Assembly (NCBI GenBank): GCA_964035015.1
Contig: OZ036007.1
Location: 1,313,899-1,377,898 of the forward strand
DNA from: Corallium rubrum
Lineage: Eukaryota > Cnidaria > Anthozoa > Scleralcyonacea > Coralliidae
Reading direction: 5' to 3'
Length of the DNA stretch: 64,000 nt
In this document: piece after piece, positions 2,529 to 62,288 of the stretch
Layout of the letters: every line of letters starts with the position of its first letter
Numbering within the stretch: position 1 is the stretch's first letter
The notes under the pieces: model-generated
The model's database searches: none
The model's input: only the letters and a program-made list of their open reading frames with translations
Told to the model about the DNA's origin: nothing
Program-made: the position numbers and the translations under genes

Positions 2529-2701
2529 GTTGATATAATCTGAGGACAACTTTAGTACATTTATAGACATTATTTACATGGCACGTTATTCATAATTAAA
2601 TCAATGTGATTGAGCAAGCAAGTTGTAAGTTGATATAATCTGAGAACAACTTTAGTGCATTTATAGACATTATTTACATGGCACGTTATTCATAATTAAA
2701 T
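2529..2701. repeat. 73-bp direct repeat, period exactly 100 bp
   Basis: 2529-2601 and 2629-2701 (GTTGATATAATCTGAG to CATAATTAAAT) match with only two differences noticed. The 27-bp spacer is unique. Confidence 0.9.
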
Positions 2702-2890
2702 ATTGTTGGGTGGAGATTCAAAGTGATTATGTCATTCACTTCTTTGTATTTCCCCAGAAAAATCAAAAGAAAAAATCAGAAGTGGAATGGTTAATGGAAA
2801 CTGTTATTTATGTTGTCTGTGCAGTGTCCTTGGCTGGTATACTGATGCTGAATATTTCGTACCTGTAAGGTTTCGGCAATTACGTTCACC

Positions 2891-3620
2891 GTTATTGTTA
2901 TTGTGATTGTGATTGTGATTGTGATTGTGATTGTGATTGTGATTGTGATTGTGATTGTGATTGTTATTGTTATTGTTATTGTTATTGTTATTGTTATTGT
3001 TATTGTTATTGTTATTGTTATTGTTATTGTTATTGTTATTGTTATTGTTATTGTTATTGTTATTGTTATTGTTATTGTTATTGTTATTGTTATTGTTATT
3101 GTTATTGTTATTGTTATTGTTATTGTTATTGTTATTGTTATTGTTATTGTTATTGTTATTGTTATTGTTATTGTTATTGTTATTGTTATTGTTATTGTTA
3201 TTGTTATTGTTATTGTTATTGTTATTGTTATTGTTATTGTTATTGTTATTGTTATTGTTATTGTTATTGTTATTGTTATTGTTATTGTTATTGTTATTGT
3301 TATTGTTATTGTTATTGTTATTGTTATTGTTATTGTTATTGTTATTGTTATTGTTATTGTTATTGTTATTGTTATTGTTATTGTTATTGTTATTGTTATT
3401 GTTATTGTTATTGTTATTGTTATTGTTATTGTTATTGTTATTGTTATTGTTATTGTTATTGTTATTGTTATTGTTATTGTTGTTATTGTTATTGTTATTG
3501 TTATTGTTATTGTTATTGTTATTGTTATTGTTATTGTTATTGTTATTGTTATTGTTATTGTTATTGTTATTGTTATTGTTATTGTTATTGTTATTGTTAT
3601 TGTTATTGTTATTGTTATTG
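2891..3620. repeat. Hexanucleotide microsatellite (TTATTG)n, with ATTGTG variant at the left
   Basis: About 730 bp of hexamers. The left 70 bp are mostly ATTGTG units; the rest is almost pure TTATTG, about 110 copies, with one 3-bp slip near 3481. The array ends about 147 bp upstream of the PAN-EGF-TLDc start codon. The open frames of repeated Ile-Val or Leu arise because the unit is 6 bp. Confidence 0.98.
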
Positions 3621-3766
3621 CTAACTTTTGTTCTTTGTATGAATAATTATAATCAAAACAGATAACAAACTCATGTAAAAATGTTTCCAGGGTACATCTG
3701 CTAACAAAAAATTGGCTTTCAAAAGTCGCGTCACAAAACAGGTCTAATTTATCCAGCTCGTCACAA

Positions 3767-16802
<13,036 letters not shown>

Positions 16803-17335: not shown

Positions 17336-17343
17336 CAACTCTT
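17336..17343. repeat. Target-site duplication, left, CAACTCTT
   Basis: Identical to 27896-27903. The next base G (17344 / 27904) also matches, so the duplication is 8 or 9 bp. Confidence 0.85.
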
Positions 17344-17486
17344 GGTTGGTACTTCATGTTAGGGTACATATAGTGGTTATATATATATTTAATAGTATAC
17401 GCTTATGACATATAGTGGTACTTACATTATGACATATAGTGGTACTTACATTATAGTTGTTACAACTTATACTTTATTCTTTCCAT
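17344..17486 (+). repeat. Outer unique tip of left foldback arm
   Basis: About 143 bp, near-identical inverted to 27758-27895. Contains a tandem pair of a 28-bp phrase (GACATATAGTGGTACTTACA) and an AT-rich tract. Transposase-binding sites would be expected here. Confidence 0.85.
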
Positions 17487-20400
17487 GCTTTATCTACTTT
17501 ACCTGCTTTATATGCTTTACCTGCTTTATCTGCTTTATATGCTTTATATGCTTTACCTGCTTTATATGCTTTACCTGCTTTATATGCTTTATATGCTTTA
17601 CCTGCTTTATATGCTTTATATGCTTTACCTGCTTTATATGCTTTACCTGCTTTATATGCTTTATATGCTTTACCTGATTTATATGCTTTATATGCTTTAC
17701 CTGCTTTATATGCTTTACCTGCTTTATATGCTTTATATGCTTTACCTGCTCTATATGCTTTACCTGCTTTATATGCTTTATCTGCTTTACCTGCTTTATA
17801 TGCTTTACCTGCTTTACCTGCTTTATATGCTTTATATGCTTTACCTGCTTTATATGCTTTATATGCTTTACCTGCTTTATATGCTTTACCTGCTTTATAT
17901 GCTTTATATGCTTTACCTGCTTTATATGCTTTACCTGCTTTATATGCTTTATATGCTTTACCTGCTTTATATGCTTTACCTGCTTTATATGCTTTACCTG
18001 CTTTATATGCTTTATATGCTTTATATGCTTTATATGCTTTACCTGCTTTATATGCTTTACCTGCTTTATATGCTTTATATGCTTTACCTGCTTTATATGC
18101 TTTACCTCCTTTATATGCTTTATCTGCTTTACCTGCTTTATATGCTTTACCTGCTTTACCTGCTTTATATGCTTTATATGCTTTACCTGCTTTATATGCT
18201 TTATATGCTTTACCTGCTTTATATGCTTTACCTGCTTTATATGCTTTACCTGCTTTATATGCTTTACCTGCTTTATATGCTTTATATGCTTTACCTGCTT
18301 TATATGCTTTACCTGCTTTATATGCTTTACCTGCTTTATATGCTTTATATGCTTTACCTGCTTTATATGCTTTACCTGCTTTATATGCTTTACCTGCTTT
18401 ATATGCTTTATATGCTTTATATGCTTTACCTGCTTTATATGCTTTACCTGCTTTATATGCTTTACCTGCTTTATATGCTTTATATGCTTTATATGCTTTA
18501 CCTCCTTTATATGCTTTACCTGCTTTATATGCTTTATATGCTTTACCTGCTTTATATGCTTTACCTGCTTTATATGCTTTATCTGCTTTACCTGCTTTAT
18601 ATGCTTTACCTGCTTTATATGCTTTATATGCTTTACCTGCTTTATATGCTTTATATGCTTTACCTGCTTTATATGCTTTACCTGCTTTATATGCTTTATA
18701 TGCTTTACCTGCTTTATATGCTTTACCTGCTTTATATGCTTTACCTGCTTTATATGCTTTATATGCTTTACCTGCTTTATATGCTTTACCTGCTTTATAT
18801 GCTTTACCTGCTTTATATGCTTTATATGCTTTATATGCTTTACCTGCTTTATATGCTTTACCTGCTTTATATGCTTTATATGCTTTATATGCTTTACCTG
18901 CTTTATATGCTTTATATGCTTTACCTGCTTTATATGCTTTACCTGCTTTATATGCTTTATATGCTTTACCTGCTTTATATGCTTTACCTGCTTTATATGC
19001 TTTACCTGCTTTATATGCTTTATATGCTTTACCTGCTTTATATGCTTTACCTGCTTTATATGCTTTACCTGCTTTATATGCTTTATATGCTTTATATGCT
19101 TTACCTGCTTTATATGCTTTACCTGCTTTATATGCTTTATATGCTTTATATGCTTTATATGCTTTATATGCTTTATATGCTTTATATGCTTTACCTGCTT
19201 TATATGCTTTACCTGCTTTATATGCTTTATATGCTTTATATGCTTTATATGCTTTATATGCTTTATATGCTTTACCTGCTTTATATGCTTTACCTGCTTT
19301 ATATGCTTTACCTGCTTTATATGCTTTACCTGCTTTATATGCTTTACCTGCTTTATATGCTTTACCTGCTTTATATGCTTTACCTGCTTTATATGCTTTA
19401 CCTGCTTTATATGCTTTACCTGCTTTATATGCTTTACCTGCTTTATATGCTTTACCTGCTTTATATGCTTTACCTGCTTTATATGCTTTATCTGCTTTAT
19501 ATGCTTTACCTGCTTTATATGCTTTATCTGCTTTATATGCGTTACGTGCTTTATATGCTTTACCTGCTTTATATGCTTTATCTGCTTTATATGTTTTACC
19601 TGCTTTATATGCTTTACCTGCTTTATATGCTTTACCTGCTTTATATGCTTTATCTGCTTTATATATGCTTTACCTGCTTTACCTGCTTTATATGCTTTAT
19701 ATGCTTTATATGCTTTATATGCTTTACCTGCTTTATATGCTTTATATGCTTTACCTACTTTATATGCTTTATATGCTTTATATGCTTTACCTGCTTTATA
19801 TGCTTTACCTGCTTTATATGCTTTATATGCTTTACCTGCTTTATATGCTTTACCTGCTTTATATGCTTTACCTGCTTTATATGCTTTATATGCTTTATAT
19901 GCTTTATATGCTTTACCTGCTTTATATGCTTTACCTGCTTTATATGCTTTACCTGCTTTATATGCTTTATATGCTTTATATGCTTTATATGCTTTATATG
20001 CTTTATATGCTTTATATGCTTTACCTGCTTTATATGCTTTACCTGCTTTATATGCTTTACCTGCTTTATATGCTTTATATGCTTTATATGCTTTATATGC
20101 TTTATATGCTTTACCTGCTTTATATGCTTTATATGCTTTATACGCTTTATATGCTTTATATGCTTTACCTGCTTTATATGCTTATATGCTTTATATGCTT
20201 TACCTGCTTTATATGCTTTATATGCTTTACCTGCTTTACCTGCTTTACCTGCTTTATATGCTTTACCTGCTTTATATGCTTTACTTTACCTGCTTTATAT
20301 GCTTTATATGCTTTATATGCTTTACCTGCTTACCTGCTTTATATGCTTTATATGCTTTACCTGCTTTACCTGCTTTACCTGCTTTATATGCTTAATATGC

Positions 20401-21760
20401 TTTATATGCTTTATATGCTTTATATGCTTTATATGCTTTATATGCTTTACCTTATATGCTTTATATGCTTTACCTGCTTTATATGCTTTACCTGCTTTAT
20501 ATGCTTTATATGCTTTATATGCTTTATATGCTTTATATGCTTTTATATGCTTTATATGCTTTATATGCTTTATATGCTTTATATGCTTTATATGCTTTAT
20601 ATGTTTATATTTACCTGCTTTATATTGCTTTACCTGCTTTATATGCTTTACCTGCTTTATATGCTTTATGCTTTATATGCTTTATATGCTCTGCTTTATA
20701 TGCTTTACGCTTTATATGCTTTATATGCTTTATATGCTTTATACCTGCTTTATTTTTATATGCTTTATATGCTTTATATGCTTTATATGCTTTATATGCT
20801 TTATATGCTTTACCTGCTTTATATGCTTTATATGCTTTACCTGCTTTACCTGCTTTACCTGCTTTATATGCTTTACCTGCTTTATATGCTTTACCTGCTT
20901 TATATGCTTTATATGCTTTATATGCTTTACCTGCTTACCTGCTTTATATGCTTTATATGCTTTACCTGCTTTATATGCTTTACCTGCTTTATATGCTTTA
21001 CCTGCTTTATATGCTTTACCTGCTTTATATGCTTTACCTGCTTTATATGCTTTATATGCTCTATATGCTTTACCTGCTTTTTTTGCTTTATATGCTTTAT
21101 AAACTTTATATGCTTTATATGCTTTACCTGCTTTATATGCTTTATATGCTTTATATGCTTTACCTGCTTTATATGCTTTATATGCTTTACCTGCTTTACC
21201 TGCTTTATATGCTTTACCTGCTTTATATGCTTTATATGCTTTACCTGCTTTATATGCTTTATATGCTTTACCTGCTTTATATGCTTTATATGCTTTACCT
21301 GCTTTACCTGCTTTACCTGCTTTACCTGCTTTACCTGCTTTATATGCTTAATATGCTTTATATGCTTTATATGCTTTATATGCTTTATATGCTTTATATG
21401 CTTTATATGCTTTATATGCTTTATATGCTTTATATGCTTTACCTGCTTTATATGCTTTATATGCTTTATATGTTTTACCTGCTTTATATGCTTTTATATG
21501 CTTTATATGCTTCACCTGCTTTATATGCTTTACCTGCTTTATATGCTTTATATGCTTTACCTGCTTTACCTGCTTTATATGCTTTATATGCTTTATATGC
21601 TTTATATGCTTTATATGCTTTATATGCTTTATATGCTTTATATGCTTTATATGCTTTATATGCTTTATATGCTTTATATGCTTTATATGCTTTACCTGCT
21701 TTATATGCTTTATATGCTTTATATGCTTTACGTGCTTTATACGCTTTATCTGCTTTATAT
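17487..21760 (+). repeat. 9-bp minisatellite, left arm: TTTATATGC / TTTACCTGC
   Basis: Roughly 475 units of two alternating types, with rare variants (TTTATCTGC, TTTACCTCC, TTACGTGC). 17487-20160 is very regular. 20160-21110 shows several 1- to 5-bp slips that change the frame. Because 9 is divisible by 3, open frames exceed 1,200 codons but carry no protein signal. Confidence 0.97.
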
Positions 21761-21770
21761 ATCAGGCTTT

Positions 21771-22000
21771 TTCATGCTTGTGCTTTATGTGATAGTTCAA
21801 ACACGAGGAAGAACATTTCATCCGATATCCAAACACCTCTAAGTTGGTTAAAAAACTTGACCTAAGGCCTCGTTTTTCAACCCACTTCTTGGGTTTGGTT
21901 ATCGGATGAAACACTCTTTCGAGTGTTTGATATGTTGCTTCTCAGACGAATCAGTGTTCAAAGAGAAAATCAAGGTGAAAGTTGGCTTAATTTATGTAAG
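21771..22000 (+). repeat. Inner unique inverted segment (left)
   Basis: Near-perfect reverse complement of about 22521-22755: TTCATCCGATATCCAAACACC, then ACTTCTTGGGTTTGGTTATC, then CACTCTTTCGAGTG palindromes. Confidence 0.9.
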
Positions 22001-22136
22001 TTGCTTCCTCGGATATCCAAACCTCCATTCTCGGTACTGATTTCCTTTGTTTTTATGTTATGAATTACTAATGAGTTTGAGAATTATGAATTACGTATCA
22101 TGGAGGTTTGGATATCGGAGGAAGCAACTTACATAA
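21995..22136. repeat. Internal hairpin in foldback centre
   Basis: GTTGCTTCCTCGGATATCCA..CCTCCAT at about 22000-22030 pairs with ATGGAGGTTTGGATATCGGA.. at about 22100-22132. Loop about 70 nt, AT-rich. Confidence 0.85.
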
Positions 22137-22517
22137 CCGGTTTGGTCTTAAAATGTATATATTCTACACTCGAATTTTCCTTCACCCAAAAATCCTTAGA
22201 ACATGCTATGTAATCGAGTGAAATGCCCAATATCACTTATAATATACCCAATTCTCTCCTGGCATTACCACCTTATTATATATACAGAACTCGCGATCAA
22301 GCTCTCGGCAACGCCCTCCGTGGCTCAGTGGTCAGAGCATTGCACTAGAATCGCAAGGTCGTGGGTTCAATTCCTGCCGGAAGGCCTGTGTAGTTGCATT
22401 TTTCGCAACTGGATCCGGTTTGGTCTTAAAATGTAGATATTCTACACTCGAATTTTCCTTCACCCAAAAATCCTTAGAACATGCTATGTAATCGAGTGAA
22501 ATGCCCAATATCACTTA
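22136..22517 (+). mobile_element. SINE-like block: tRNA-like unit between two direct repeats
   Basis: A segment of about 104 bp starting CCGGTTTGGTCTTAAAATGT and ending CCCAATATCACTTAT occurs at about 22137-22240 and 22411-22517, flanking the tRNA-like 22313-22385. The simplest reading is a tRNA-derived SINE whose body also exists as a 5'-truncated copy upstream, inserted in the centre of the foldback element. Confidence 0.65.
22313..22385 (+). tRNA. tRNA-like sequence (SINE head, probably not a functional tRNA)
   Basis: Acceptor GCCCTCC / GGAAGGC has one C-A mismatch. A box TGGCTCAGTGG is at 22321 and B box GGTTCAATTCC at 22364. The D stem GCTC/GAGC and T stem pair. The anticodon loop CTAGAAT would give AGA (Ser), but there is no long variable arm and the anticodon stem has a mismatch. 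It should still attract Pol III. Confidence 0.5.
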
Positions 22518-22520
22518 TTA

Positions 22521-22761
22521 CATAAATTAAGCCAACTTTTACCTTGATTTTCTCTTTAAACACTGATTCGTCTGAGAAGCAACATATCAAACACTCGAAA
22601 GAGTGTTTCATCCGATAACCAAACCCAAGAAGTGGGTTGAAAAACGAGGCCTTAGGCCAAGTTTTTTAACCAACTTAGAGGTGTTTGGATATCGGATGAA
22701 ATGCTCTTCCTTGTGTTTGAACTATCACATAAAGCACAACAAGCATGATAAAGCCTGATAT
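22521..22761 (-). repeat. Inner unique inverted segment (right)
   Basis: Partner of 21771-22000, with a few substitutions and a 3-bp difference near 22735. Confidence 0.9.
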
Positions 22762-25700
22762 ATAAAGCATATAAAGCAGATAAGGCATATAAAGTATATA
22801 AAGCATATAAAGCAGGTAAAGCATATAAAGCAGGTAAAGCATATAAAGCAGGTAAAGCATATAAAGCATATAAAGCATATAAAGCAGGTACAGCATATAA
22901 AGCATATAAAGCAGGTAAAGCATATAAAGCATATAAAGCAGGTAGAGAATATAAAGCATATAAAGCAGGTAAAGCAAGTAAAGCAGGTAAAGCATATGAA
23001 GCATATAAAGCATATAAAGCATGTAAAGCATATAAAGCATATAAAGCATATAAAGCATATAAAGCAGGTAAAGCGTATAAAGCGTATAAAGCGTATAAAG
23101 CATAAAGCATATAAAGCAGGTAAAGCGTATAAAGCATACAAAGCATACAAAGCAGGTAAAGCATATAAAGCATATAAAGCATGTAAAGCATATAAAGCAT
23201 ATAAAGCATATAAAGCATATAAAGCATATAAAGCATATAAAGCATGTAAAGCATATAAAGCATATAAAGCATATAAAGCAGGTAAAGCATATAAAGCATA
23301 TAAAGCAGGTAAAGCATATAAAGCAGGTAGAGAATATAAAGCATATAAAGCATATAAAGCAGGTAAAGCATATAAAGCAGGTAGAGAATATAAAGCATAT
23401 AAAGCATATAAAGCAGGTAAAGCATATAAAGCAGGTAAAGCAGGTAAAGCATATAAAGCAGGTAAAGCATATAAAGCATATAAAGCAGGTAAAGCAGGTA
23501 AAGCACATAAAGCATATAAAGCACGTAAAGCATATAAAGCAGGTAAAGCATATAAAGCATATAAAGCATATAAAGCATATAAAGCAGGTAAAGCATATAA
23601 AGCATATAAAGCATATAAAGCATATAAAGCATATAAAGCAGGTAAAGCATATAAAGCATATAAAGCAGGTAAAGCATATAAAGCAGGTAAAGCATATAAA
23701 GCAGGTAAAGCATATAAAGCATATAAAGCATATAAAGCAGGTAAAGCAGGTAAAGCATATAAAGCAGGTAAAGCAGATAAAGCATATAAAGCAGGTAAAG
23801 CATATAAAAAGCAGGTAAAGCATATAAAGCAGGTAAAGCATATAAAGCATATAAAGCATATAAAGCATATAAAGCATATAAAGCATATAAAGCAGGTAAA
23901 GCATATAAAGCAGGTAAAGCAGGTAAAGCATATAAAGCAGGTAAAGCAGATAAAGCATATAAAGCAGGTAAAGCATATAAAGCAGGTAAAGCATATAAAG
24001 CAGGTAAAGCATATAAAGCAGGTAAAGCATATAAAGCATACAAAGCAGGTAAAGCATATAAAGCATATAAAGCAGGTAAAGCAGGTAAAGCATATAAAGG
24101 AGGTAAAGCAGATAAAGCAGGTAAAGCATATAAAGCAGGTAAAGCATATAAAGCAGGTAACGCATATAAAGCATATAAAGCAGGTAAAGCATATAAAGCA
24201 TATAAAGCAGGTAAAGCAGGTAAATCATATAAAGCAGGTAAAGCATATAAAGCATATAAAGCATATAAAGCATATAAAGCATATAAAGCATATAAAGCAG
24301 GTAAAGCAGGTAAAGCATATAAAGCATATAAAGCATATAAAGCAGGTAAAGCATATAAAGGATATAAAGCATATAAAGCATATAAAGCAGGTAAAGCATA
24401 TAAAGCATATAAAGCAGGTAAAGCATATAAAGCAGGTAAAGCATATAAAGCAGGTAAAGCATATAAAGCATATAAAGCATATAAAGCAGGTAAAGCAGGT
24501 AAAGCATATAAAGCATATAAAGCAGGTAAAGCATATAAAGCAAGTAAAGCATATAAAGCAGGTAAAGCATATAAAGCATATAAAGCATATAAAGCAGGTA
24601 AAGCATATAAAGCAGGTAAAGCAGATAAAGCAGGTAAAGCATATAAAGCAGGTAAAGCAGATAAAGCATATAAAGCAGGTAAAGCATATAAAGCAGGTAA
24701 AGCATATAAAGCAGGTAAAGCATATAAAGCAGGTAAAGCATATAAAGCATACAAAGCAGGTAAAGCATATAAAGCATATAAAGCAGGTAAAGCAGGTAAA
24801 GCATATAAAGCAGGTAAAGCATATAAAGCAGGTAAAGCATATAAAGCAGGTAAAGCATATAAAGCAGGTAAAGCAGATAAAGCAGGTAAAGCATATAAAG
24901 CAGGTAAAGCAGATAAAGCATATAAAGCAGGTAAAGCATATAAAGCAGGTAAAGCATATAAAGCAGGTAAAGCATATAAAGCAGGTAAAGCATATAAAGC
25001 ATACAAAGCAGGTAAAGCATATAAAGCATATAAAGCAGGTAAAGCAGGTAAAGCATATAAAGCAGGTAAAGCATATAAAGCAGGTAAAGCATATAAAGCA
25101 GGTAAAGCATATAAAGCATACAAAGCAGGTAAAGCATATAAAGCATATAAAGCAGGTAAAGCAGGTAAAGCATATAAAGGAGGTAAAGCAGATAAAGCAG
25201 GTAAAGCATATAAAGCATATAAAGCAGGTAAAGCATATAAAGCAGGTAACGCATATAAAGCATATAAAGCAGGTAAAGCATATAAAGCATATAAAGCAGG
25301 TAAAGCAGGTAAATCATATAAAGCAGGTAAAGCAGATAAAGCATATAAAGCATATAAAGCATATAAAGCATATAAAGCATATAAAGCAGGTAAAGCAGGT
25401 AAAGCATATAAAGCATATAAAGCATATAAAGCATATAAAGCATATAAAGCAGGTAAAGCATATAAAGCATATAAAGCATATAAAGCATATAAAGCAGGTA
25501 AAGCATATAAAGCATATAAAGCATATAAAGCAGGTAAAGCATATAAAGCAGGTAAAGCATATAAAGCATATAAAGCATAAAGCATATAAAGCAGGTAAAG
25601 CATATAAAGCAGGTAAAGCATATAAAGCAGGTAAAGCATATAAAGGATACAAAGCAGGTAAAGCATATAAAGCATATAAAGCAGGTAAAGCAGGTAAAGC

Positions 25701-27757
25701 ATATAAAGGAGGTAAAGCAGATAAAGCAGGTAAAGCATATAAAGCATATAAAGCAGGTAAAGCATATAAAGCAGGTAACGCATATAAATCATATAAAGCA
25801 GGTAAAGCATATAAAGCATATAAAGCAGGTAAAGCAGGTAAATCATATAAAGCAGGTAAAGCAGATAAAGCATATAAAGCATATAAAGCATATAAAGCAT
25901 ATAAAGCATATAAAGCAGGTAAAGCAGGTAAAGCATATAAAGCATATAAAGCATATAAAGCAGGTAAAGCATATAAAGCATATAAAGCATATAAAGCATA
26001 TAAAGCAGGTAAAGCATATAAAGCATATAAAGCAGGTAAAGCATATAAAGCAGGTAAAGCATATAAAGCAGGTAAAGCATATAAAGCATATAAAGCATAT
26101 AAAGCAGGTAAAGCAGGTAAAGCAGGTAAAGCATATAAAGCATATAAAGCAGGTAAAGCATATAAAGCAAGTAAAGCATATAAAGCAGGTAAAGCATATA
26201 AAGCATATAAAGCATATAAAGCATATAAAGCCTATAAAGCAGGTAAAGCATATAAAGCAGGTAAAGCAGATAAAGCAGGTAAAGCATATAAAGCATATAA
26301 AGCAGGTAAAGCATATAAAGCAGGTAAAGCATATAAAGCATATAAAGCAGGTAAAGCAGGTAAAGCATATAAAGCATATAAAGCAGGTAAAGCATATAAA
26401 GCAGGTAAAGCATATAAAGCATATAAAGCAGGTAAAGCATATAAAGCAGGTAAAGCATATAAAGCAGGTATAGCATATAAAGCAGGTAAAGCATATAAAG
26501 CAGGTAAAGCATATAAAGCATATAAATCAGGTAAAGCATATAAAGCATATAAAGCAGGTAAAGCATATAAAGCAGGTAAAGCATATAAAGCATATAAAGC
26601 AGGTAAAGCATATAAAGCATATAAAGCACGTAAAGCATATAAAGCACGTAAAGCATATAAAGCATATAAAGCATATAAAGCATATAAAGCATATAAAGCA
26701 TATAAAGTAGGTAAAGCATATAAAGCATATAAAGCATATAAAGCAGGTAAAGCATATAAAGCGTATAAAGCAGGTAAAGCATATAAAGCAGGTAAAGCAT
26801 ATAAAGCAGGTAAAGCATATAAAGCATATAAAGCATATAAAGCAGGTAAAGCAGGTAAAGCAGGTAAAGCATATAAAGCATATAAAGCAGGTAAAGCAGA
26901 TAAAGCATATAAAGCAGGTAAAGCATATAAAGCAGGTAAAGCATATAAAGGAGGTAAAGCATATAAAGCAGGTAAAGCATATAAAGCAGGTAAAGCATAT
27001 AAAGCATATAAAGCAGGTAAAGCATATAAAGCAGGTAAAGCATATAAAGCATATAAATCAGGTAAAGCATATAAAGCAGGTAAAGCGTATAAAGCATATA
27101 AAGCAGGTAAAGCATATAAATCATATAAAGCAGTTAAAGCATATAAAGCAATTAAAGCATATAAAGCATATAAAGCACGTAAAGCATATAAAGCAGGTAA
27201 AGCATATAAAGCATATAAAGCATGTAAAGCATATAAAGCAGGTAAAGCATATATAGCAGGTAAAGCATATAAAGCATATAAAGCATATAAAGCATATAAA
27301 GCATATAAAGCAGGTAAAGCATATAAAGCATATAAAGCATATAAAGCAGGTAAAGCATATAAAGCATATAAAGCAGGTAAAGCATATAAAGCAGGTAAAG
27401 CATATAAAGCATATAAATCAGGTAAAGCATATAAAGCAGGTAAAGCGTATAAAGCATATAAAGCAGGTAAAGCATATAAATCATATAAAGCAGGTAAAGC
27501 ATATAAAGCAATTAAAGCATATAAAGCATATAAAGCACGTAAAGCATATAAAGCAGGTAAAGCATATAAAGCATATAAAGCATGTAAAGCATATAAAGCA
27601 GGTAAAGCATATATAGCAGGTAAAGCATATAAAGCATATAAAGCATATAAAGCATATAAAGCAGGTAAAGCATATAAAGCATATAAAGCAGGTAAAGCAT
27701 ATAAAGCATATAAAGCAGGTAAAGCATATAAAGCAGGTAAAGTATATAAAGCATGGA
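22762..27757 (-). repeat. 9-bp minisatellite, right arm: GCATATAAA / GCAGGTAAA
   Basis: About 555 units, the reverse-complement form of the left array. Rare variants (GCAGATAAA, GGAGGTAAA, GCACGTAAA, GCAATTAAA) act as markers of higher-order duplications. The open frame of more than 1,500 codons (Lys-Ala-Tyr/Gly) is a repeat artefact. Confidence 0.97.
27061..27660 (-). repeat. Higher-order repeat, 360-bp period, in right array
   Basis: 27061-27300 and 27421-27660 match base for base apart from one G/T difference seen near 27133/27493. They share the rare variants GCGTATAAA, GCAATTAAA, GCACGTAAA and ATATAGCAGG. 360 bp equals 40 units, implying recent unequal exchange or slippage of a large block. 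Confidence 0.9.
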
Positions 27758-27895
27758 AAGAATAAAGTATAAGTTGTAACAACTATAATGTAAGTACCAC
27801 TATATGTCATAATGTAAGTACCACTATATGTCATAAGCGTATACTATTAAATATATATATAACCACTATATGTACCCTAACATGAAGTACCTACC
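27758..27895 (-). repeat. Outer unique tip of right foldback arm
   Basis: Inverted partner of 17344-17486, ending GTACCTACC. Confidence 0.85.
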
Positions 27896-27903
27896 CAACT
27901 CTT
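27896..27903. repeat. Target-site duplication, right, CAACTCTT
   Basis: Exact copy of 17336-17343, directly outside the right tip. Confidence 0.85.
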
Positions 27904-28272
27904 GTGTGAAGCCGCTGATCTATCGCTGACTCAGCTACCTTCTTCTCCGCATGGAAAAGCGGTAGAAGTTCTGGTGTTAATACTTTTAAATGGTTATTTA
28001 ATGCTGCTTTGAAAGTCGAAGAACCCTGTTGGATTGTGTATGATATTTGAAGTGATGATAATCGTGAAGATATACGTATGTTCCTACATACTGTTTGAAT
28101 TATGAAAAGAAATAGACAGCCAAGTGTCAATATTTGTAGTGGATGATCTGCTCAGAAAGAGTTTGGACTTGGAGAAAAGGTGAACTTATATACATGTAGT
28201 CACGTACAATAGTAGTTTCCAACCTTTTTTTCCATTCTAGGCCCCGCTCGAGACATGTTCAAAATTGGTTTA

Positions 28273-32690: not shown

Positions 32691-32757
<67 letters not shown>
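32691..32757. repeat. (TA)n tract abutting PLE 3' end
   Basis: Pure TA dinucleotides that end where the left PLE copy begins (ttttcgcttacc). Confidence 0.97.
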
Positions 32758-32760
<3 letters not shown>

Positions 32761-32776
32761 TCGCTTACCTCAAAAG

Positions 32777-32819
32777 TCTGCTACAGGCTGTTTCATCTAA
32801 AAAAGAATCTTCAGGCAGA
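32777..32819 (-). ncRNA. Hammerhead ribozyme, PLE family A, left copy
   Basis: On the minus strand: stem I TCTGC (32815-32819), core CTGAAGA, stem II TTCT..AGAT (3 pairs plus a U-U), GAA, stem III ACA-gcc-TGT, A at the cleavage position, stem I GCAGA (32777-32781). The order and spacing match minimal type-I hammerheads described in PLEs. Stem II is weak, so activity in vivo is uncertain. Confidence 0.75.
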
Positions 32820-32898
32820 TGACAATTTTCGAAAACAGGGGGTGCTTATATCCTTCTTGTCGGAACGTGGGAGTGTGGGGGCGAAACAATACATGCAT

Positions 32899-35022
32899 TC
32901 ATGGCTTTGTTGCGCTGTTTGCGCGGAATTTGTGTCGATGACGACATTGACTGATAATTTCTGCTCTTTTGTTGAGTAAACAATTCTTGTTTTTATCTTT
33001 CAAAATATAAAATTTTTCTTCTAAACATAAATTACATCGTTTTGAACCTCCCGTGTACGAAATGGAATGTTTTAAAATTTGCCAATTAATACTAAAATCC
33101 TTATTATTTTCTTTCAATGCCCAAATATATTTCGAAAGTTCGGTGTCGTTTGCATGCTTTTTATGCTGAAAAGATTTAGTGTGGTTGGCCAATCGCTCTT
33201 TGAATGTGGTTGAAGTCATGCCAATGTAATTCTTGATCGTGTTTGTGTTGTTTACTGTGACTGTTGCTTTGTATACTATGTCCCTAGTCATGCATTGTTT
33301 TCTAAGTGGACAATTCGTGTTTTTCTTACAATTGCAACTGCTAGTGTCCTTATCCTGTGGCATGTTATTCCTAGATATGTGTGCATTGTGTTTAGTGATT
33401 ATTGACTTAACATTGTTCATGCAGCTGTAACTTACTTTGACTGTGTTTCTGTTAAAAATTTTATGGAGCTTATGGTGTGGTGGGAAGTGTTTGTCAATTA
33501 GGTTTAGGAAATTACGTCCTATGTTTGTGCTTACACTCTTGCTAAAAGGTGGGTTGAACCAGGTGATGTTGCGTTGCCTATTCCTGCGTGGTTGCTGTGC
33601 TGTGTGTTGAGTGTAGCTAAGATCATGATCAAAGTTGCTGTGCCTAAGTGCGTTCTGATATATGGTTGCAGATTCCTGAAAAACTTGTTCATCTGATGAG
33701 AGAAGTGCAATGCGCTTGTTGATTGATGTAGGTAACTGTCTTGTGATGCTTGGTGGGTGGTTAGAGTGCTTATTTATGTAAAGCGGATCGTCATTGGGCT
33801 TCCTATAGGGCCTATAATTTCCATTGTTGAGGTCGAAAGTTACATCTAAAAAGTTTACTATGCGTAAATTTGATTCGGCGGTAATTTTTAGGTCAAACTG
33901 CTCGAAAATTTTGTGGAGTTCTTTCCTTGTTTTGTCTGCTAAACGTGCTGATTTACTTTTTATAATAGCTAAACCGTCATCTCTATATAGGCCAATGCTT
34001 TCTTTGCCAAATTTCTTACTTAGGTGATTTAAAATGAAAAGGCCTACTAACTCACAAACTTCCGCGCCGTCGAAACAACCCATGGTAACGTCAAACAAAC
34101 TATTGCTATCTTTTTTTATCCATGAAGTTCCGGTATTGAAAAGGAGAGATTTTCTAGCGTGTTTTATTATTGAAATGTTGTTTTCAGTTATAGTAGCCAA
34201 ATTCGAAGCCCAAGATAATGCTTGGTCCAATAGTTTTTCAGAAATAGACGGATAGAAATCGACAATGTCAAACGAAATAAAACTATGTCTGTCCTTATCT
34301 TTTATATTGCCAAACCACTCAATTACTTGTTTTGTATTTCTCCATTGGTTTAAATTCAGTTTTTGTCTCAAATTAGAATTAATTTTGTCCAAAATCACCT
34401 TACTTAGTTTTCCGGATTCGCTTTTAGCGGGGTTAATTAATCGGCATTTTGGATTGTTTTCGAAATTTTCTTTGTGGTCTTTTAAAGATATAAATGCTTC
34501 GCGTTTTTTCATTTTTTCGATTTTGTCGCCGATTCCTAAACTGTTCGAAATTTCTCTTAGTTCCGAATCAATCTCATCTATAGTGTCCTCGGATCCATGC
34601 TTATATGTTTTTGTGATGTTGTCATGTAGGAGCTTGTTGTATGTGTCGAGTGGGGTTTCATAAATGTTCCTAGTTTTGTCTGCAAAAATGAAAACGTTGG
34701 GAGATGAATTAATTTTCTTTAAATCGGTAGCCAAACATTTCTGAAACTGGTTCGTGTATGGCCGAAATTGTATATTTTCGATGAGTTTTATAAGGTCGTC
34801 TTCGAAAGGTTTTATTTCTGGGATAGAAGGAGGTGTTTTGTTGGACGCAAGGCCGAAAGGGTTGTTTTGGTTTTCTCTCTGTTTGTTTTTAAGAAAGAAA
34901 TTGGCTTTCCATCTCATACGTTTTATTACACTTTCCACTTTTTCAATCAAATTCTTCAAATAAGCGTCCTGTGATGGTATTGGGATATTCTTTAGTGAAT
35001 AGTCAAATCGAAATTGCCGCAT
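32899..35022 (-). CDS. PLE reverse transcriptase/GIY-YIG endonuclease, left copy, 707 aa
   Basis: Start chosen at the first ATG (MRQFRFDYSL). An upstream GTG in frame is unlikely in a eukaryote. Approximate positions: N-terminal region with FIFADKTRN (112-119); fingers with LKDHKENF..PKCRLINP (180-198); RT motif A FDIVDFYPSI (251-260); motif B region MGCFDGAEV (314-322); catalytic YRDDG (346-350); motif near FLDVTFDL (391-398); cysteine cluster CNC..C..C (563-577); GIY-YIG endonuclease IVY (582-584), YIG (599-601), Arg in FKERL (607-611) and a conserved Glu in CLEEKF (666-671). This is an EN-plus Penelope-like element with C-terminal GIY-YIG. The clade (Neptune, Nematis, Hydra-type) cannot be fixed without a tree. 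The product would act in target-primed reverse transcription. The frame is intact. Confidence 0.93.
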   Translation of the reverse strand: MRQFRFDYSLKNIPIPSQDAYLKNLIEKVESVIKRMRWKANFFLKNKQRENQNNPFGLASNKTPPSIPEIKPFEDDLIKLIENIQFRPYTNQFQKCLATDLKKINSSPNVFIFADKTRNIYETPLDTYNKLLHDNITKTYKHGSEDTIDEIDSELREISNSLGIGDKIEKMKKREAFISLKDHKENFENNPKCRLINPAKSESGKLSKVILDKINSNLRQKLNLNQWRNTKQVIEWFGNIKDKDRHSFISFDIVDFYPSISEKLLDQALSWASNLATITENNISIIKHARKSLLFNTGTSWIKKDSNSLFDVTMGCFDGAEVCELVGLFILNHLSKKFGKESIGLYRDDGLAIIKSKSARLADKTRKELHKIFEQFDLKITAESNLRIVNFLDVTFDLNNGNYRPYRKPNDDPLYINKHSNHPPSITRQLPTSINKRIALLSSDEQVFQESATIYQNALRHSNFDHDLSYTQHTAQQPRRNRQRNITWFNPPFSKSVSTNIGRNFLNLIDKHFPPHHKLHKIFNRNTVKVSYSCMNNVKSIITKHNAHISRNNMPQDKDTSSCNCKKNTNCPLRKQCMTRDIVYKATVTVNNTNTIKNYIGMTSTTFKERLANHTKSFQHKKHANDTELSKYIWALKENNKDFSINWQILKHSISYTGGSKRCNLCLEEKFYILKDKNKNCLLNKRAEIISQCRHRHKFRANSATKP

Positions 35023-35088
35023 TTTGAAGTTAAATAGAAATGAATAACGTAAACAAGAGTGCACGACCGATATACGGGTGCGAATATA

Positions 35089-35187
35089 CGTGTGGGTTTT
35101 GGTCTACGAAACGCAAAGAGTGCTCGATAACATATAGTTAGAGCAAATAGATTTTCGCTTACCTCAAAAGTCTGCTACAGGCTGTTT
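35089..35187 (-). repeat. Pseudo-LTR segment in the left copy's 5' leader
   Basis: Reverse complement of 37533-37633 (99 versus 101 bp). It holds the 3' half of the hammerhead, GACTTTTGAGGTAAGCG, GTTATCGAGCACTCT and CGTAGACCAAAA. A segment present both as 5' leader of one copy and 3' extension of the other is what a PLE pseudo-LTR is. Confidence 0.85.
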
Positions 35188-35205
35188 CATCTAAACAGCC
35201 TGTAG
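35175..35205. repeat. Palindromic head-to-head junction
   Basis: CTACAGGCTGTTT (35175-35187), loop CATCT, AAACAGCCTGTAG (35193-35205), a perfect 13-bp stem. AAACAGCCTGTA is the hammerhead GAA-stem III segment, and its last A is the predicted self-cleavage position. Confidence 0.9.
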
Positions 35206-35303
35206 TTTTTGGTTTTTCGTAGACCAAAACCCACACGTATATTCGCACCCGTATATCGGTCGTGCACTCTTGTTTACGTTATTCATTTCTATTTAACTTC
35301 AAA

Positions 35304-37427
35304 ATGCGGCAATTTCGATTTGACTATTCACTAAAGAATATCCCAATACCATCACAGGACGCTTATTTGAAGAATTTGATTGAAAAAGTGGAAAGTGTAA
35401 TAAAACGTATGAGATGGAAAGCCAATTTCTTTCTTAAAAACAAACAGAGAGAAAACCAAAACAACCCTTTCGGCCTTGCGTCCAACAAAACACCTCCTTC
35501 TATCCCAGAAATAAAACCTTTCGAAGACGACCTTATAAAACTCATCGAAAATATACAATTTCGGCCATACACGAACCAGTTTCAGAAATGTTTGGCTACC
35601 GATTTAAAGAAAATTAATTCATCTCCCAACGTTTTCATTTTTGCAGACAAAACTAGGAACATTTATGAAACCCCACTCGACACATACAACAAGCTCCTAC
35701 ATGACAACATCACAAAAACATATAAGCATGGATCCGAGGACACTATAGATGAGATTGATTCGGAACTAAGAGAAATTTCGAACAGTTTAGGAATCGGCGA
35801 CAAAATCGAAAAAATGAAAAAACGCGAAGCATTTATATCTTTAAAAGACCACAAAGAAAATTTCGAAAACAATCCAAAATGCCGATTAATTAACCCTGCT
35901 AAAAGCGAATCCGGAAAACTAAGTAAGGTGATTTTGGACAAAATTAATTCTAATTTGAGACAAAAACTGAATTTAAACCAATGGAGAAATACAAAACAAG
36001 TAATTGAGTGGTTTGGCAATATAAAAGATAAGGACAGACATAGTTTTATTTCGTTTGACATTGTCGATTTCTATCCGTCTATTTCTGAAAAACTATTGGA
36101 CCAAGCATTATCTTGGGCTTCGAATTTGGCTACTATAACTGAAAACAACATTTCAATAATAAAACACGCTAGAAAATCTCTCCTTTTCAATACCGGAACT
36201 TCATGGATAAAAAAAGATAGCAATAGTTTGTTTGACGTTACCATGGGTTGTTTCGACGGCGCGGAAGTTTGTGAGTTAGTAGGCCTTTTCATTTTAAATC
36301 ACCTAAGTAAGAAATTTGGCAAAGAAAGCATTGGCCTATATAGAGATGACGGTTTAGCTATTATAAAAAGTAAATCAGCACGTTTAGCAGACAAAACAAG
36401 GAAAGAACTCCACAAAATTTTCGAGCAGTTTGACCTAAAAATTACCGCCGAATCAAATTTACGCATAGTAAACTTTTTAGATGTAACTTTCGACCTCAAC
36501 AATGGAAATTATAGGCCCTATAGGAAGCCCAATGACGATCCGCTTTACATAAATAAGCACTCTAACCACCCACCAAGCATCACAAGACAGTTACCTACAT
36601 CAATCAACAAGCGCATTGCACTTCTCTCATCAGATGAACAAGTTTTTCAGGAATCTGCAACCATATATCAGAACGCACTTAGGCACAGCAACTTTGATCA
36701 TGATCTTAGCTACACTCAACACACAGCACAGCAACCACGCAGGAATAGGCAACGCAACATCACTTGGTTCAACCCACCTTTTAGCAAGAGTGTAAGCACA
36801 AACATAGGACGTAATTTCCTAAACCTAATTGACAAACACTTCCCACCACACCATAAGCTCCATAAAATTTTTAACAGAAACACAGTCAAAGTAAGTTACA
36901 GCTGCATGAACAATGTTAAGTCAATAATCACTAAACACAATGCACACATATCTAGGAATAACATGCCACAGGATAAGGACACTAGCAGTTGCAATTGTAA
37001 GAAAAACACGAATTGTCCACTTAGAAAACAATGCATGACTAGGGACATAGTATACAAAGCAACAGTCACAGTAAACAACACAAACACGATCAAGAATTAC
37101 ATTGGCATGACTTCAACCACATTCAAAGAGCGATTGGCCAACCACACTAAATCTTTTCAGCATAAAAAGCATGCAAACGACACCGAACTTTCGAAATATA
37201 TTTGGGCATTGAAAGAAAATAATAAGGATTTTAGTATTAATTGGCAAATTTTAAAACATTCCATTTCGTACACGGGAGGTTCAAAACGATGTAATTTACG
37301 TTTAGAAGAAAAATTTTATATTTTGAAAGATAAAAACAAGAATTGTTTACTCAACAAAAGAGCAGAAATTATCAGTCAATGTCGTCATCGACACAAATTC
37401 CGCGCAAACAGCGCAACAAAGCCATGA
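35304..37427 (+). CDS. PLE reverse transcriptase/GIY-YIG endonuclease, right copy, 707 aa
   Basis: Same protein as the left copy with one difference seen: residue 666, Cys in the left (KRCNLCLEEK), is Arg here (KRCNLRLEEK). That Cys lies next to the presumed catalytic Glu and is conserved in the family-B fragment (KCNLCLHEKF), so this copy may have a weakened endonuclease. All RT motifs (FDIVDFYPSI, YRDDG) and the IVY/YIG pair are intact. The ATG at 35304 was chosen over the upstream in-frame GTG. Transcription from the shared 5' junction would be divergent, giving two sense RNAs. Confidence 0.93.
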   Translation: MRQFRFDYSLKNIPIPSQDAYLKNLIEKVESVIKRMRWKANFFLKNKQRENQNNPFGLASNKTPPSIPEIKPFEDDLIKLIENIQFRPYTNQFQKCLATDLKKINSSPNVFIFADKTRNIYETPLDTYNKLLHDNITKTYKHGSEDTIDEIDSELREISNSLGIGDKIEKMKKREAFISLKDHKENFENNPKCRLINPAKSESGKLSKVILDKINSNLRQKLNLNQWRNTKQVIEWFGNIKDKDRHSFISFDIVDFYPSISEKLLDQALSWASNLATITENNISIIKHARKSLLFNTGTSWIKKDSNSLFDVTMGCFDGAEVCELVGLFILNHLSKKFGKESIGLYRDDGLAIIKSKSARLADKTRKELHKIFEQFDLKITAESNLRIVNFLDVTFDLNNGNYRPYRKPNDDPLYINKHSNHPPSITRQLPTSINKRIALLSSDEQVFQESATIYQNALRHSNFDHDLSYTQHTAQQPRRNRQRNITWFNPPFSKSVSTNIGRNFLNLIDKHFPPHHKLHKIFNRNTVKVSYSCMNNVKSIITKHNAHISRNNMPQDKDTSSCNCKKNTNCPLRKQCMTRDIVYKATVTVNNTNTIKNYIGMTSTTFKERLANHTKSFQHKKHANDTELSKYIWALKENNKDFSINWQILKHSISYTGGSKRCNLRLEEKFYILKDKNKNCLLNKRAEIISQCRHRHKFRANSATKP

Positions 37428-37506
37428 ATGCATGTATTGTTTCGCCCCCACACTCCCACGTTCCAACAAGAAGGATATAAGCACCCCCTGTTTTCGAAAA
37501 TTGTCA

Positions 37507-37549
37507 TCTGCCTGAAGATTCTTTTTTAGATGAAACAGCCTGTAGCAGA
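37507..37549 (+). ncRNA. Hammerhead ribozyme, PLE family A, right copy
   Basis: Stem I TCTGC (37507-37511) with GCAGA (37545-37549); CTGAAGA (37512-37518); stem II 37519-37531; GAA 37532-37534; stem III ACA/TGT (37535-37537 and 37541-37543); cleavage expected after A37544. All conserved core bases are present. Stem II has only three Watson-Crick pairs. Confidence 0.77.
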
Positions 37550-37632
37550 CTTTTGAGGTAAGCGAAAATCTATATTTGCTCTAACTATATGTTATCGAGC
37601 ACTCTGCGCGTTTCGTAGACCAAAATCCACAC

Positions 37633-57360: not shown

Positions 57361-57477
57361 CAAAGTGTTGCGATAAAAAATATCGAGTATAAAATCGTAC
57401 GGATAGAGTGCTCAATGCGTAAGCAGAGCATAACATAAGATGAAAAACACACACAAGTTACTTCATAAAGAACTTTA

Positions 57478-57537
57478 TTTCACTACAAATTTGTTTCGTA
57501 TGGCAAGCGTAGTGCTTGCCACACTCGTCAGGTGAAA
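57478..57537 (-). ncRNA. Hammerhead ribozyme, family B, left arm
   Basis: Exact complement-strand twin of 59019-59078: stem I 57532-57537 with 57478-57483, CTGACGA at 57531-57525, 11-bp stem II, GAA, ACAAATTTGT, cleavage next to 57484. Confidence 0.88.
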
Positions 57538-57952
57538 GTGTTAGTCCACAGTTGGTGTGAATGTATATATGAGAAGCGTGTGTGTGGTGCGTGGCGTGTT
57601 GTTTGTGTGCAGTCGTCTGTACGTTAGTCGTAGTTCATATTACAATTGGTGTGGTTTAGCTATTACATAATAAAAATTTCTTACGGTGTCTACATGTTGA
57701 AATCAGTTCATTTCTCTTGTTAAGAGAACTCAGTTTTGGGTGGCAGATTATTACGAACTTCTCGTGTAAGCACAAATTGCACTTTTTTGTCTTACTGGAA
57801 TATGGTTGGCACTTCTTGATAATTTTCCATTTGATTGAGTAGCGCGCGTTCGATTCTTTCAGCGACCAAATGTGTTTACTGAGTTCGGTAGCGTTCTTAG
57901 TTTTTTCGTTACGGAAAGAGCTAGTGTGGTTTAGGTATCTTGTCTTAAATGC

Positions 57953-58900
57953 GTGAACTTCTTAGATATCACTTTCGACCTCAGATCCGAAACCTTCAAA
58001 CCCTACAACAAACCAGGCAACATTCCCCAGTATGTCCACGTCCATAGCAACCACCCACCAACTATCCTACGCAGAATACCAGAAACAATCAACCAACGGC
58101 TGTCAAAAATCTCCTCTAACCAAGAATCATTCGACTCCAGCGCGCGCCCGTACCAAGAAGCTCTTAGAAAAAGCGGCTACGATCATAACCTCCGCTACGA
58201 CCCACAACCAACCCGAGCAAGACGAACCAGATCAAGAAATGTAACCTGGTATAACCCGCCGTATAACGCCAACGTCGCCACCGACATCGGGCACAAATTC
58301 CTCAAAGCAGTGCACGATTGCTTTCCAAAACATCACCCGCTAAACAAAATCTTCAACAGGAACACTCTAAAGCTTAGTTACAGCTGCATGCCGAATGTAG
58401 AAAACATCATCTCCGCGCATAATAAAGCCGTCCTTAACAAACAGATTCAAGTTAATGAAAACCAGAATAATGAATGCAACTGTCGCCAAAAAAGTGCCTG
58501 TCCACTGCAAGGAAAATGCCTAACCAAAAGCATCGTTTATCAAGCAACCGTAAAGAACATTGATAAAAACACAGAAGAAACCTACGTTGGATTAACAGAG
58601 GGGGCATTTAAGACAAGATACCTAAACCACACTAGCTCTTTCCGTAACGAAAAAACTAAGAACGCTACCGAACTCAGTAAACACATTTGGTCGCTGAAAG
58701 AATCGAACGCGCGCTACTCAATCAAATGGAAAATTATCAAGAAGTGCCAACCATATTCCAGTAAGACAAAAAAGTGCAATTTGTGCTTACACGAGAAGTT
58801 CGTAATAATCTGCCACCCAAAACTGAGTTCTCTTAACAAGAGAAATGAACTGATTTCAACATGTAGACACCGTAAGAAATTTTTATTATGTAATAGCTAA
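57953..58900 (+). CDS. PLE protein C-terminal part, family B (5'-truncated)
   Basis: About 315 codons open from the junction at 57952, with no genuine start. NFLDITFDL aligns to residue ~390 of the family-A protein, followed by HSNHPPTILRRIPETIN, TWYNPPYNANVATDIG, IFNRNTLKLSYSCMPNV, the cysteine cluster CNCRQKSACPLQGKC, IVYQATV and YVGLTEGAFKTR (GIY-YIG pair and Arg) and CNLCLHEKF. No lesions are seen. The catalytic RT core lies upstream and is absent, so this copy cannot reverse transcribe. It is clearly a sister family of 32899-37427. Confidence 0.88.
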   Translation: MNFLDITFDLRSETFKPYNKPGNIPQYVHVHSNHPPTILRRIPETINQRLSKISSNQESFDSSARPYQEALRKSGYDHNLRYDPQPTRARRTRSRNVTWYNPPYNANVATDIGHKFLKAVHDCFPKHHPLNKIFNRNTLKLSYSCMPNVENIISAHNKAVLNKQIQVNENQNNECNCRQKSACPLQGKCLTKSIVYQATVKNIDKNTEETYVGLTEGAFKTRYLNHTSSFRNEKTKNATELSKHIWSLKESNARYSIKWKIIKKCQPYSSKTKKCNLCLHEKFVIICHPKLSSLNKRNELISTCRHRKKFLLCNS

Positions 58901-59018
58901 ACCACACCAATTGTAATATGAACTACGACTAACGTACAGACGACTGCACACAAACAACACGCCACGCACCACACACACGCTTCTCATATATACATTCACA
59001 CCAACTGTGGACTAACAC

Positions 59019-59078
59019 TTTCACCTGACGAGTGTGGCAAGCACTACGCTTGCCATACGAAACAAATTTGTAGTGAAA
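59019..59078 (+). ncRNA. Hammerhead ribozyme, family B, right arm
   Basis: Stem I TTTCAC (59019-59024) with GTGAAA (59073-59078), six pairs; CTGACGA 59025-59031; stem II GTGTGGCAAGC (59032-59042) with GCTTGCCATAC (59048-59058), eleven pairs including one G-U, loop ACTAC; GAA 59059-59061; self-complementary ACAAATTTGT (59062-59071) as stem III; cleavage after A59072. All conserved core bases are present. The zero-loop palindromic stem III suggests it may fold as a dimer. Confidence 0.92.
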
Positions 59079-59116
59079 TAAAGTTCTTTATGAAGTAACT
59101 TGTGTGTGTTTTTCAT

Positions 59117-59119
<3 letters not shown>

Positions 59120-59180
<61 letters not shown>
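59120..59180. repeat. (TA)n tract between two PLE 3' ends
   Basis: About 60 bp of TA. Left neighbour is the family-B 3' end, right neighbour the family-A 3' end. Confidence 0.97.
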
Positions 59181-59183
<3 letters not shown>

Positions 59184-59197
59184 GCTTACCTCAAAAG

Positions 59198-59240
59198 TCT
59201 GCAACAGGCTGTTTCATCTAAAAAAGAATCTTCAGGCAGA
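59198..59240 (-). ncRNA. Hammerhead ribozyme, family A, third copy
   Basis: As in copies one and two, but the cleavage-position base is T instead of A, still permitted (H17 = A, C or U). Stem I TCTGC/GCAGA intact. Confidence 0.7.
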
Positions 59241-59312
59241 TGACAATTTTCGAAAACAGGGGTGCTTATATCCTTCCTGACGGAACGTGGGAGTGTGGGG
59301 GCGAAACAATAC

Positions 59313-61441: not shown

Positions 61442-62288
61442 TTTGAAGTTAAATAGAAATGAATAACGTAAACAAGAGTGCACAACCGATATACGGGTGC
61501 GAATATACGTGTGGGTTTTGGTCTACGAAACACCCGTATATCGGTTGTGCACTCTTGTTTACGTTATTCATTTCTATTTAACTTCAAAATGCGGCAATTT
61601 CGATTTGACTATTCACTAAAGAATATCCCAATACCATCACAGGACGCTTATTTGAAGAATTTGATTGAAAAAGTGGAAAGTGTAATAAAACGTATGAGAT
61701 GGAAAGCCAATTTCTTTCTTAAAAACAAACAGAGAGAAAATAAAAACAACCCTTTCGGCCTTGCGTCCAACAAAACACCTCCTTCTATTCCGGAAATAAA
61801 ACCTTTCGAAGACGACCTTATAAAACGCATCGAAAATATACAATTTCGGCCATATACGAACCAGTTTCAGAAATGTTTGGCTACCGATTTAAAGAAAATT
61901 AATTCATCTCCCAACATTTTCATTTTTGCAGACAAAACTAGGAACATTTATGAAACCCCACTCGACACATACAACAAGCTCCTACATGACAACATCACAA
62001 AAACATATAAGCATGGATCCAGTTTAGGAATCGGCGACAAAATTGAAAAAATGAAAAAACGCGAAGCATTTATATCTTTAAAAGACCACAAAGAAAATTT
62101 CGAAAACAATCCAAAATGCCGATTAATTAACCCGCTAAAAGCGAATCCGGAAAACTAAGTAAGGTGTTTTTGGACGAAATTAATTCTAATTTGAGACAAA
62201 AACTGAATTTAAATCAATGGAGAAATACAAAACAAGTAATTGAGTGGTTTGGCAATATAAAAGATAAGGACAGACATAGTTTTATTTC

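Follow-up and report, generated by a model that had tools for sequence, protein, structure and literature searches.

Foldback elements with tandem-repeat arms, arms that change length separately and insertion with a target preference are all known already. The FB elements of Drosophila have inverted ends that are composed of several domains and contain tandem repeats, and in Tm1 of Meloidogyne the terminal repeats consist of short units of 13-15 bp whose number varies (PMC3169594). Tetris of Drosophila virilis is a foldback element with tandem repeats inside its terminal repeats, an outer flanking domain and no transposase found (PMC4079207), while Galileo of Drosophila has long, internally repetitive terminal repeats whose two ends change length separately (PMC3573991, PMC3688188), and MuTAnT of Medicago is foldback-structured and shows a strong target preference (PMC4486113). 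The element described here, from Corallium rubrum, lies in the window, the whole 64,000-nucleotide stretch that was analysed (C28:1313899-1377898). We read this 10.55-kb element, with a probability of about 0.92, as a non-autonomous DNA transposon of foldback architecture whose arms are carried along when the element moves, and we describe it as a member of a foldback family that is new and whose minisatellite arms are very large. Its parts, in window positions, are listed here (SINE, short interspersed element).

17344..27895: whole foldback element, 10,552 bp
17336..17343, plus strand: left target-site duplication CAACTCTT, identical to 27896-27903
27896..27903, plus strand: right target-site duplication CAACTCTT, identical to 17336-17343
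17344..17484, plus strand: left tip, 141 bp, begins GGTTGGTACTTCATG
27755..27895, minus strand: right tip, inverted, begins GGTAGGTACTTCATG, 99.3% identity to the left tip
17485..21760, plus strand: left arm array, 9-bp unit GCTTTATAT / GCTTTACCT, about 475 units (Tandem Repeats Finder)
22760..27754, minus strand: right arm array, the 9-bp unit of the left arm inverted, about 555 units (Tandem Repeats Finder)
21743..22028, plus strand: left arm of the core hairpin, its outer end overlapping the array edge
22526..22777, minus strand: right arm of the core hairpin, together with 22100-22136
21992..22136, no strand: palindrome at the original centre, with arms of 37 bp and a loop of 71 nt
22137..22517, plus strand: SINE-type insert, 381 bp, tRNA-like head at 22314-22386
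27912..27915, minus strand: GCGG target motif (CCGC on the plus strand), 8 bp beyond the right duplication

The inverted tips of the window element are identical at 140 of 141 bp; read outside-in, they first differ at base 4 and next at base 151, with 168 of 170 bases matching gap-free. Their outer 15 bp are GGTWGGTACTTCATG, and ACATATAGTGG is repeated within each tip, three times in the left one and partly as a 24-bp tandem doublet; these repeats and the doublet are candidate transposase sites. Two matches to the tip pattern were found in the window versus none in 100 shuffles. The left array measures 4,276 bp and was scored by Tandem Repeats Finder as 477 copies of 9 bp, the right array measures 4,995 bp and was scored as 277.6 copies of an 18-bp double unit, and division of the lengths by the unit gives 475 and 555 nine-base units. 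GCTTTATAT and GCTTTACCT are the prevailing forms of the unit, and its orientation in one arm is the reverse of that in the other. Further in, the inverted arms at 21778-21999 and 22518-22739 are 98% complementary. The initial annotation of the window had described inverted tips of about 140 bp, inverted arrays of about 475 and 555 nine-base units and an inner inverted segment, and all of these were borne out. It had also described an exact duplication outside the element; the exact copy is there, but it is best taken as 8 bp, without the ninth base (G) that was given in brackets. Both ends start GGT and align gap-free at 8 bp and the relatives described below have 8 bp, which would leave the agreement in a ninth G to chance. 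An 8-mer match at the spacing of the duplication occurs at 3 of 53,392 window positions, and without the element the joined flanks would read TTTTGATCAACTCTTGTGTGAAGCCGC. Tips and inner arms have 1/150 and 8/286 mismatches (p=0.17), so better conservation of the tips is not claimed. Long open frames run through the arrays because the 9-bp unit has no stops in most frames, and a coding role was rejected: a protein search with a 400-aa array frame gave no match at E<=0.001 among 7,993 scored candidates.

Relatives of the element were searched for in one assembly of 474,352,983 bases in 312 contigs, and part of the family found there was read; this is the evidence base of all that follows. In the tip search, 40 of 91 candidates were scored, with identities of 95-100%. 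A 25-base tip pattern, GGTWGGTACTTCATGTTAGGGTMCA, matched 73 sites (39 forward and 34 reverse), against none for the reversed control, and adjacent tips less than 30 kb apart formed 28 facing pairs and no other arrangement. These pairs are 1,666-22,113 bp long, with a median of about 10.5 kb. The tips, in facing pairs and some single ends, are thus not confined to the window, an outcome that the initial annotation had named as one that would refute its reading. We fetched 14 further pairs and 10 single ends, the latter followed for 10 kb, which gave a partner for S1, S2, S4 and S9; among the remaining single ends an exact tip lies further out for S5, S6, S7 and S8 and not for S3 and S10. Together with the window copy, 19 elements with both ends were obtained, and L046 (C8:3252251-3254116), a member of the family that is 1,666 bp long and is bordered by inverted copies of a related tip, GGTAGGTACGTCATGTTAGGGTGCACATAGTGG, is the twentieth that was read end to end. 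An exact 8-bp duplication flanks 18 of these 20, with 7 of 8 bases in P3 and none in L046; without the window copy and L046, this means 17 of 18 relatives with both ends, and 7 of 8 bases in the other. Nearly all ends (43 of 44, from 25 loci) start GG, the exception being S7, which starts AG. The tip had no exact match in prokaryotic and viral contig collections, as expected.

In each of the 19 elements with a duplication, both arms contain the 9-bp unit, which runs in opposite directions in the two. The 36 arms of 18 elements range from 791 to 7,166 bp (median about 3,245 bp) and make up 32-91% of the element; P2 was left out of these lists because a LINE (long interspersed element) splits its arm. 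In L046 the two sides hold about 9 and about 78 units. A sister of the window copy is P1, at C1:24.2 Mb, which has a different duplication, TGTGAGCG. Its tips agree with those of the window copy at all 141 bases of either end, the unusual T at base 4 among them, and its core is 99.9% identical over 999 bp in reverse orientation, with the SINE-type insert included. Because of this reverse orientation, the left array of the window copy matches the right array of P1 and vice versa, and with colinearity measured as bp within exact runs of at least 80 bp, these two pairings gave 3,154 and 3,594 bp. The wrong pairings gave 1,675 and 1,665 bp, and left versus right within one element gave 1,430 and 1,904 bp. 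In full alignments the matching arms were 99.0% and 98.3% identical, the wrong pairings 97.0% and 96.2%. The right arms of P10 and P11 agree at 99.7% over 3,756 aligned bp, with 18 of 19 gaps being multiples of 9, and those of P10 and S9 at 99.5% over 3,819 bp, with 20 of 21 such gaps. Elements at different loci therefore share unit order, and the arrays differ largely in 9-bp steps. The simplest reading would be that kilobase arrays were carried in transposition and later changed mostly by whole units. The proposal that this is a single mobile insertion rather than a satellite is supported by the dispersed tips, the facing pairs, the 8-bp duplications and the shared arms.

The most unexpected result, and one that goes beyond the first reading of the window, is a target preference. 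GCGG begins 20 bp outside the element, which is 8 bp beyond the duplicated 8 bp, in 15 of 44 flanks (25 loci, with L046 left out of the count). At any other of 57 offsets it was found in at most one flank, and when the flanks were shuffled 1,000 times the count stayed at three or below at every offset. The context in the 15 motif flanks is G (11), T/C (13), C (15), A (12), GCGG, T (11), which reads GYCAGCGGT. The motif stands on exactly one side in 14 of the 19 two-ended elements, on neither side in five and on both sides in none. Seven flank pairs share some sequence; only one of them, P5/S10 (139 bp, 83%), has the motif in both members, which leaves at least 14 independent cases. In L046, GCGG is at -20 in both flanks, which are inverted copies of each other. 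No one-sided target motif at a fixed distance was found in the accessible portions of the foldback and Merlin literature examined or among the titles screened, which does not prove its absence in print. Taking arms and targets together, we lean slightly towards regarding the element as a satellite carrier, which would move kilobase 9-bp minisatellite blocks intact between chromosomes to sequence-chosen sites (one-sided GYCAGCGGT).

Arms of this kind could also be an ordinary satellite that grew in place after a small element had inserted, and the range of arm lengths, from about 9 units (left arm of L046) to 7,166 bp, as well as the fast evolution of the arrays, would suit such growth. We consider this very improbable, since copies with different duplications share kilobases of colinear array (the right arms of P10/P11 and P10/S9, both arms of the window copy and P1), and independent expansion would not yield the same unit order; for these sister groups growth in place is contradicted. 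An assembly artefact, in which one arm mirrors the other or a palindrome was collapsed, would look alike, with near-identical tips and an inverted layout, and the initial annotation had named the mirror as something to check. It is hardly credible, and even less so than growth in place: the local similarity of left and right arrays was 6269, compared with a mean of 6320 (sd 44) for 30 shuffles of the units, the left- and right-specific unit orders recur at P1 on another contig, each array matching one sister arm, and 18 other elements have the same anatomy with their own duplications. Several points do weigh against a transposon that carries its arms. The window copy and P1 differ by about 2.1-2.2 kb of array per arm against one base in 999 of the core, so growth or loss after insertion is certain, and only 18 of 39 and 29 of 39 gaps between their arms are multiples of 9, which is less clean than in the P10 group. 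The shared unit order could come from later exchange between copies, and such exchange would have to cover the tips, the core and both arms. L046 has no direct duplication and lies between inverted copies of the related tip, which makes it a rearranged or nested case and may point to a sister family and to rearrangements that proceed via palindromes. No transposase of their own was found in the 19 elements, and none of the 15 Merlin-transposase matches in the assembly (DDE_Tnp_IS1595, PF12762; out of 19 candidates) lies within 1.25 Mb of a tip.

Outside P2, P10 and P14, no core has a frame longer than 122 aa. P2 and P14 were rejected as autonomous partners; the frames tested in them are those of nested reverse transcriptase/endonuclease. 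P10, at 19.4 kb the largest element read, was likewise rejected as an autonomous copy, its frames of 168, 196 and 701 aa belonging to a nested element. This nested DNA element, in the left array of P10 (L024-L026), is 9.7 kb long (element positions about 2556-12236), with inverted ends CTCAGGTGCATTAATGCCTGGG (CTCAGG...) and TA at the junctions. Its three frames had no Pfam match, and they may possibly represent an undescribed transposase. When the flanks of P10 are joined at its insertion site (C22:8853889), they give a perfect palindrome of 19 bp, GGTCAGCGTACTCGCCCAG-AAA-CTGGGCGAGTACGCTGACC, so P10 is located in the middle of a hairpin. Nine of the Merlin-transposase matches are on contigs with tips and six on contigs without any of the 73 tips; two of these loci, the only ones read, were rejected as partners because the tip motif is not present in them.

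The Merlin superfamily has 5'-GG ends and 8- or 9-bp duplications (PMC8101967), and the family described here combines GG at nearly all of its ends with an 8-bp duplication. On these features Merlin appears the most likely superfamily, with Mutator-like next. The P superfamily, to which Galileo belongs, does not fit in the duplication, which is 7 bp in Galileo and 8 bp here. Mutator duplications are about 9 bp, with a range of 8-11 bp; the 8 bp of this family are inside that range but are not the usual 9. A Mutator-like foldback, with the same architecture and another transposase, as suggested for Tetris and reported for Tm1, is unlikely in our view, though far less so than growth in place: duplications of Tetris are 8-10 bp (PMC4079207), and Tm1 has a 9-bp duplication, tandem end units of 13-15 bp and a Phantom-like transposase (PMC3169594), whereas the exact duplications here are 8 bp in 18 of 19 elements and never 9, and a GG start in 43 of 44 ends follows the Merlin rule (PMC8101967), an argument that concerns the ends alone. 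For the transposon with carried arms, the proposed course is that a transposase supplied in trans would bind the tips of about 140 bp and cut the element at both ends; the complete element would then be inserted through a staggered cut of 8 bp, by preference at GYCAGCGGT sites whose GCGG lies 8 bp beyond the duplicated bases. The oppositely oriented 9-bp-unit arms would move within the element, and after each move the two arrays would gain and lose units separately.

The cores between the arms are of three types. The first (window copy, P1 and S4) is 0.65 kb long, or 1.0 kb with the insert. The second (P4, S1, S2 and part of the long core of P2) is about 0.66 kb long with 95-96% identity, and about 194 bp of it match the first; the core of L046 is 95.6% identical to P2 over 755 bp, and P3 has parts in common with this type. 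The third (P5-P14) is about 2.7 kb long and includes a piece of the first type; S9 has only its two ends, and the cores of P10 and P14 are longer through nested elements. In the window copy, the SINE-type insert is flanked by TTACATAA at 22129-22136 and 22518-22525, and direct repeats of about 104-110 bp lie at its ends (22137-22246 and 22415-22524). When 22137-22525 (the insert and one TTACATAA) was removed by script, the core became a single inverted repeat of 289 aligned bp with 96.2% identity. The core of S4, which has no insert, aligns in one piece to this insert-free window core at 91.8%. The initial annotation had placed a SINE in the centre, and the tRNA-like sequence was confirmed by Rfam (tRNA match of 49.1 bits at 22314-22385) and by ARAGORN, which calls the head tRNA-Ser; however, the piece is present in only 2 of the 19 elements searched, the window copy and P1, and judging from these alignments it is a later insertion into the centre rather than an original part of it.

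Other features of the window were noted beside the element. On its left side, a PAN domain frame (4132-4518) and a TLDc domain frame (16440-16799) lie on the plus strand (region 4132-16802), and the foldback element begins about 540 bp past the end of the TLDc frame. Near-perfect 6-bp arrays, GTTATT x122 and GTGCCT x84, stand beside the PAN frame at 2891-3620 and 6222-6725, and positions 1-558 hold a degenerate CCTAA/CCTAT array that resembles a decayed telomere-type repeat, though it is 1.3 Mb inside contig C28. On the right side, a retroelement that we take from its sequence to be Penelope-like (Pfam gave 0 families for its frames) forms two head-to-head inverted pairs, 32697-37575 and 59119-64000. 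The first pair has 734-aa frames at 32899-35103 (minus) and 35223-37427 (plus), its copies being 99.7% identical with about 100 bp between them, and the second has copies of about 96-97% identity with broken frames. A 518-bp perfect inverted repeat at 57435-59121 surrounds a further Penelope-like frame (57935-58900). The Penelope-like protein had no match in plasmids.

The way in which satellite DNA reaches new sites has been debated for a long time, often on the basis of remnants. Here, complete elements with intact duplications carry up to 7.2 kb of array per arm and sisters share unit order. Tips and cores that have barely changed can therefore serve as a yardstick for how fast, and in what steps, the arrays change. 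If the satellite-carrier reading is true, one and the same element would account both for the spread of satellites and for the choice of target. The one-sided GCGG rule offers a way to find the transposase and put it to the test. Galileo has been proposed to act in chromosome breakage and inversion (PMC2775673), and inverted-repeat elements of about 10 kb are candidates for such events.

Compared with the known systems, the tip and unit are unrelated to those of Drosophila FB, whose duplications are 9 bp, against 8 bp here. In the sea urchin TU elements the inverted ends are likewise long and hold a short tandem unit, and the duplications are 8 bp, a likeness by description only; sea urchin is listed among the foldback hosts (PMC4079207). 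The unit of Tetris is 220 bp and its sequenced terminal repeats reach 1,735 bp, unlike the 9-bp unit here; fibre-FISH (fluorescence in situ hybridisation on fibres) showed long repeat arrays between two of its flanking domains, which were treated as satellites derived from the element (PMC4079207), whereas here arrays of 0.8-7.2 kb were sequenced inside elements with intact duplications. Galileo, which has extra transposase sites in its tandem repeats (PMC3573991, PMC3688188), is a member of the P superfamily with 7-bp duplications (PMC3573991) and terminal repeats of up to about 1.26 kb in D. mojavensis. Tm1 has a 9-bp duplication, a Phantom-like (Mutator) transposase and amplified copies of 0.9 and 2.3 kb, with no target preference reported in the accessible text (PMC3169594). 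MuTAnT is 200 bp to 1.6 kb long and targets TA microsatellites, compared with a one-sided GCGG-type motif here, and its available description contains no repeat arms (PMC4486113). The Merlin superfamily shares the GG ends and the 8- or 9-bp duplications, and some members have internal tandem repeats, but its terminal repeats are 24-462 bp, with no kilobase repeat arms in the portion of the description consulted (PMC8101967). The fibre-FISH of Tetris and the targeting of MuTAnT weaken the contrast with known systems. What is different here is the scale, with sequenced arms of up to 7.2 kb of a 9-bp unit that take up as much as 91% of the element, together with the evidence at unit level that such arrays travel within the element and the target motif that stands on one side only, at a constant distance.

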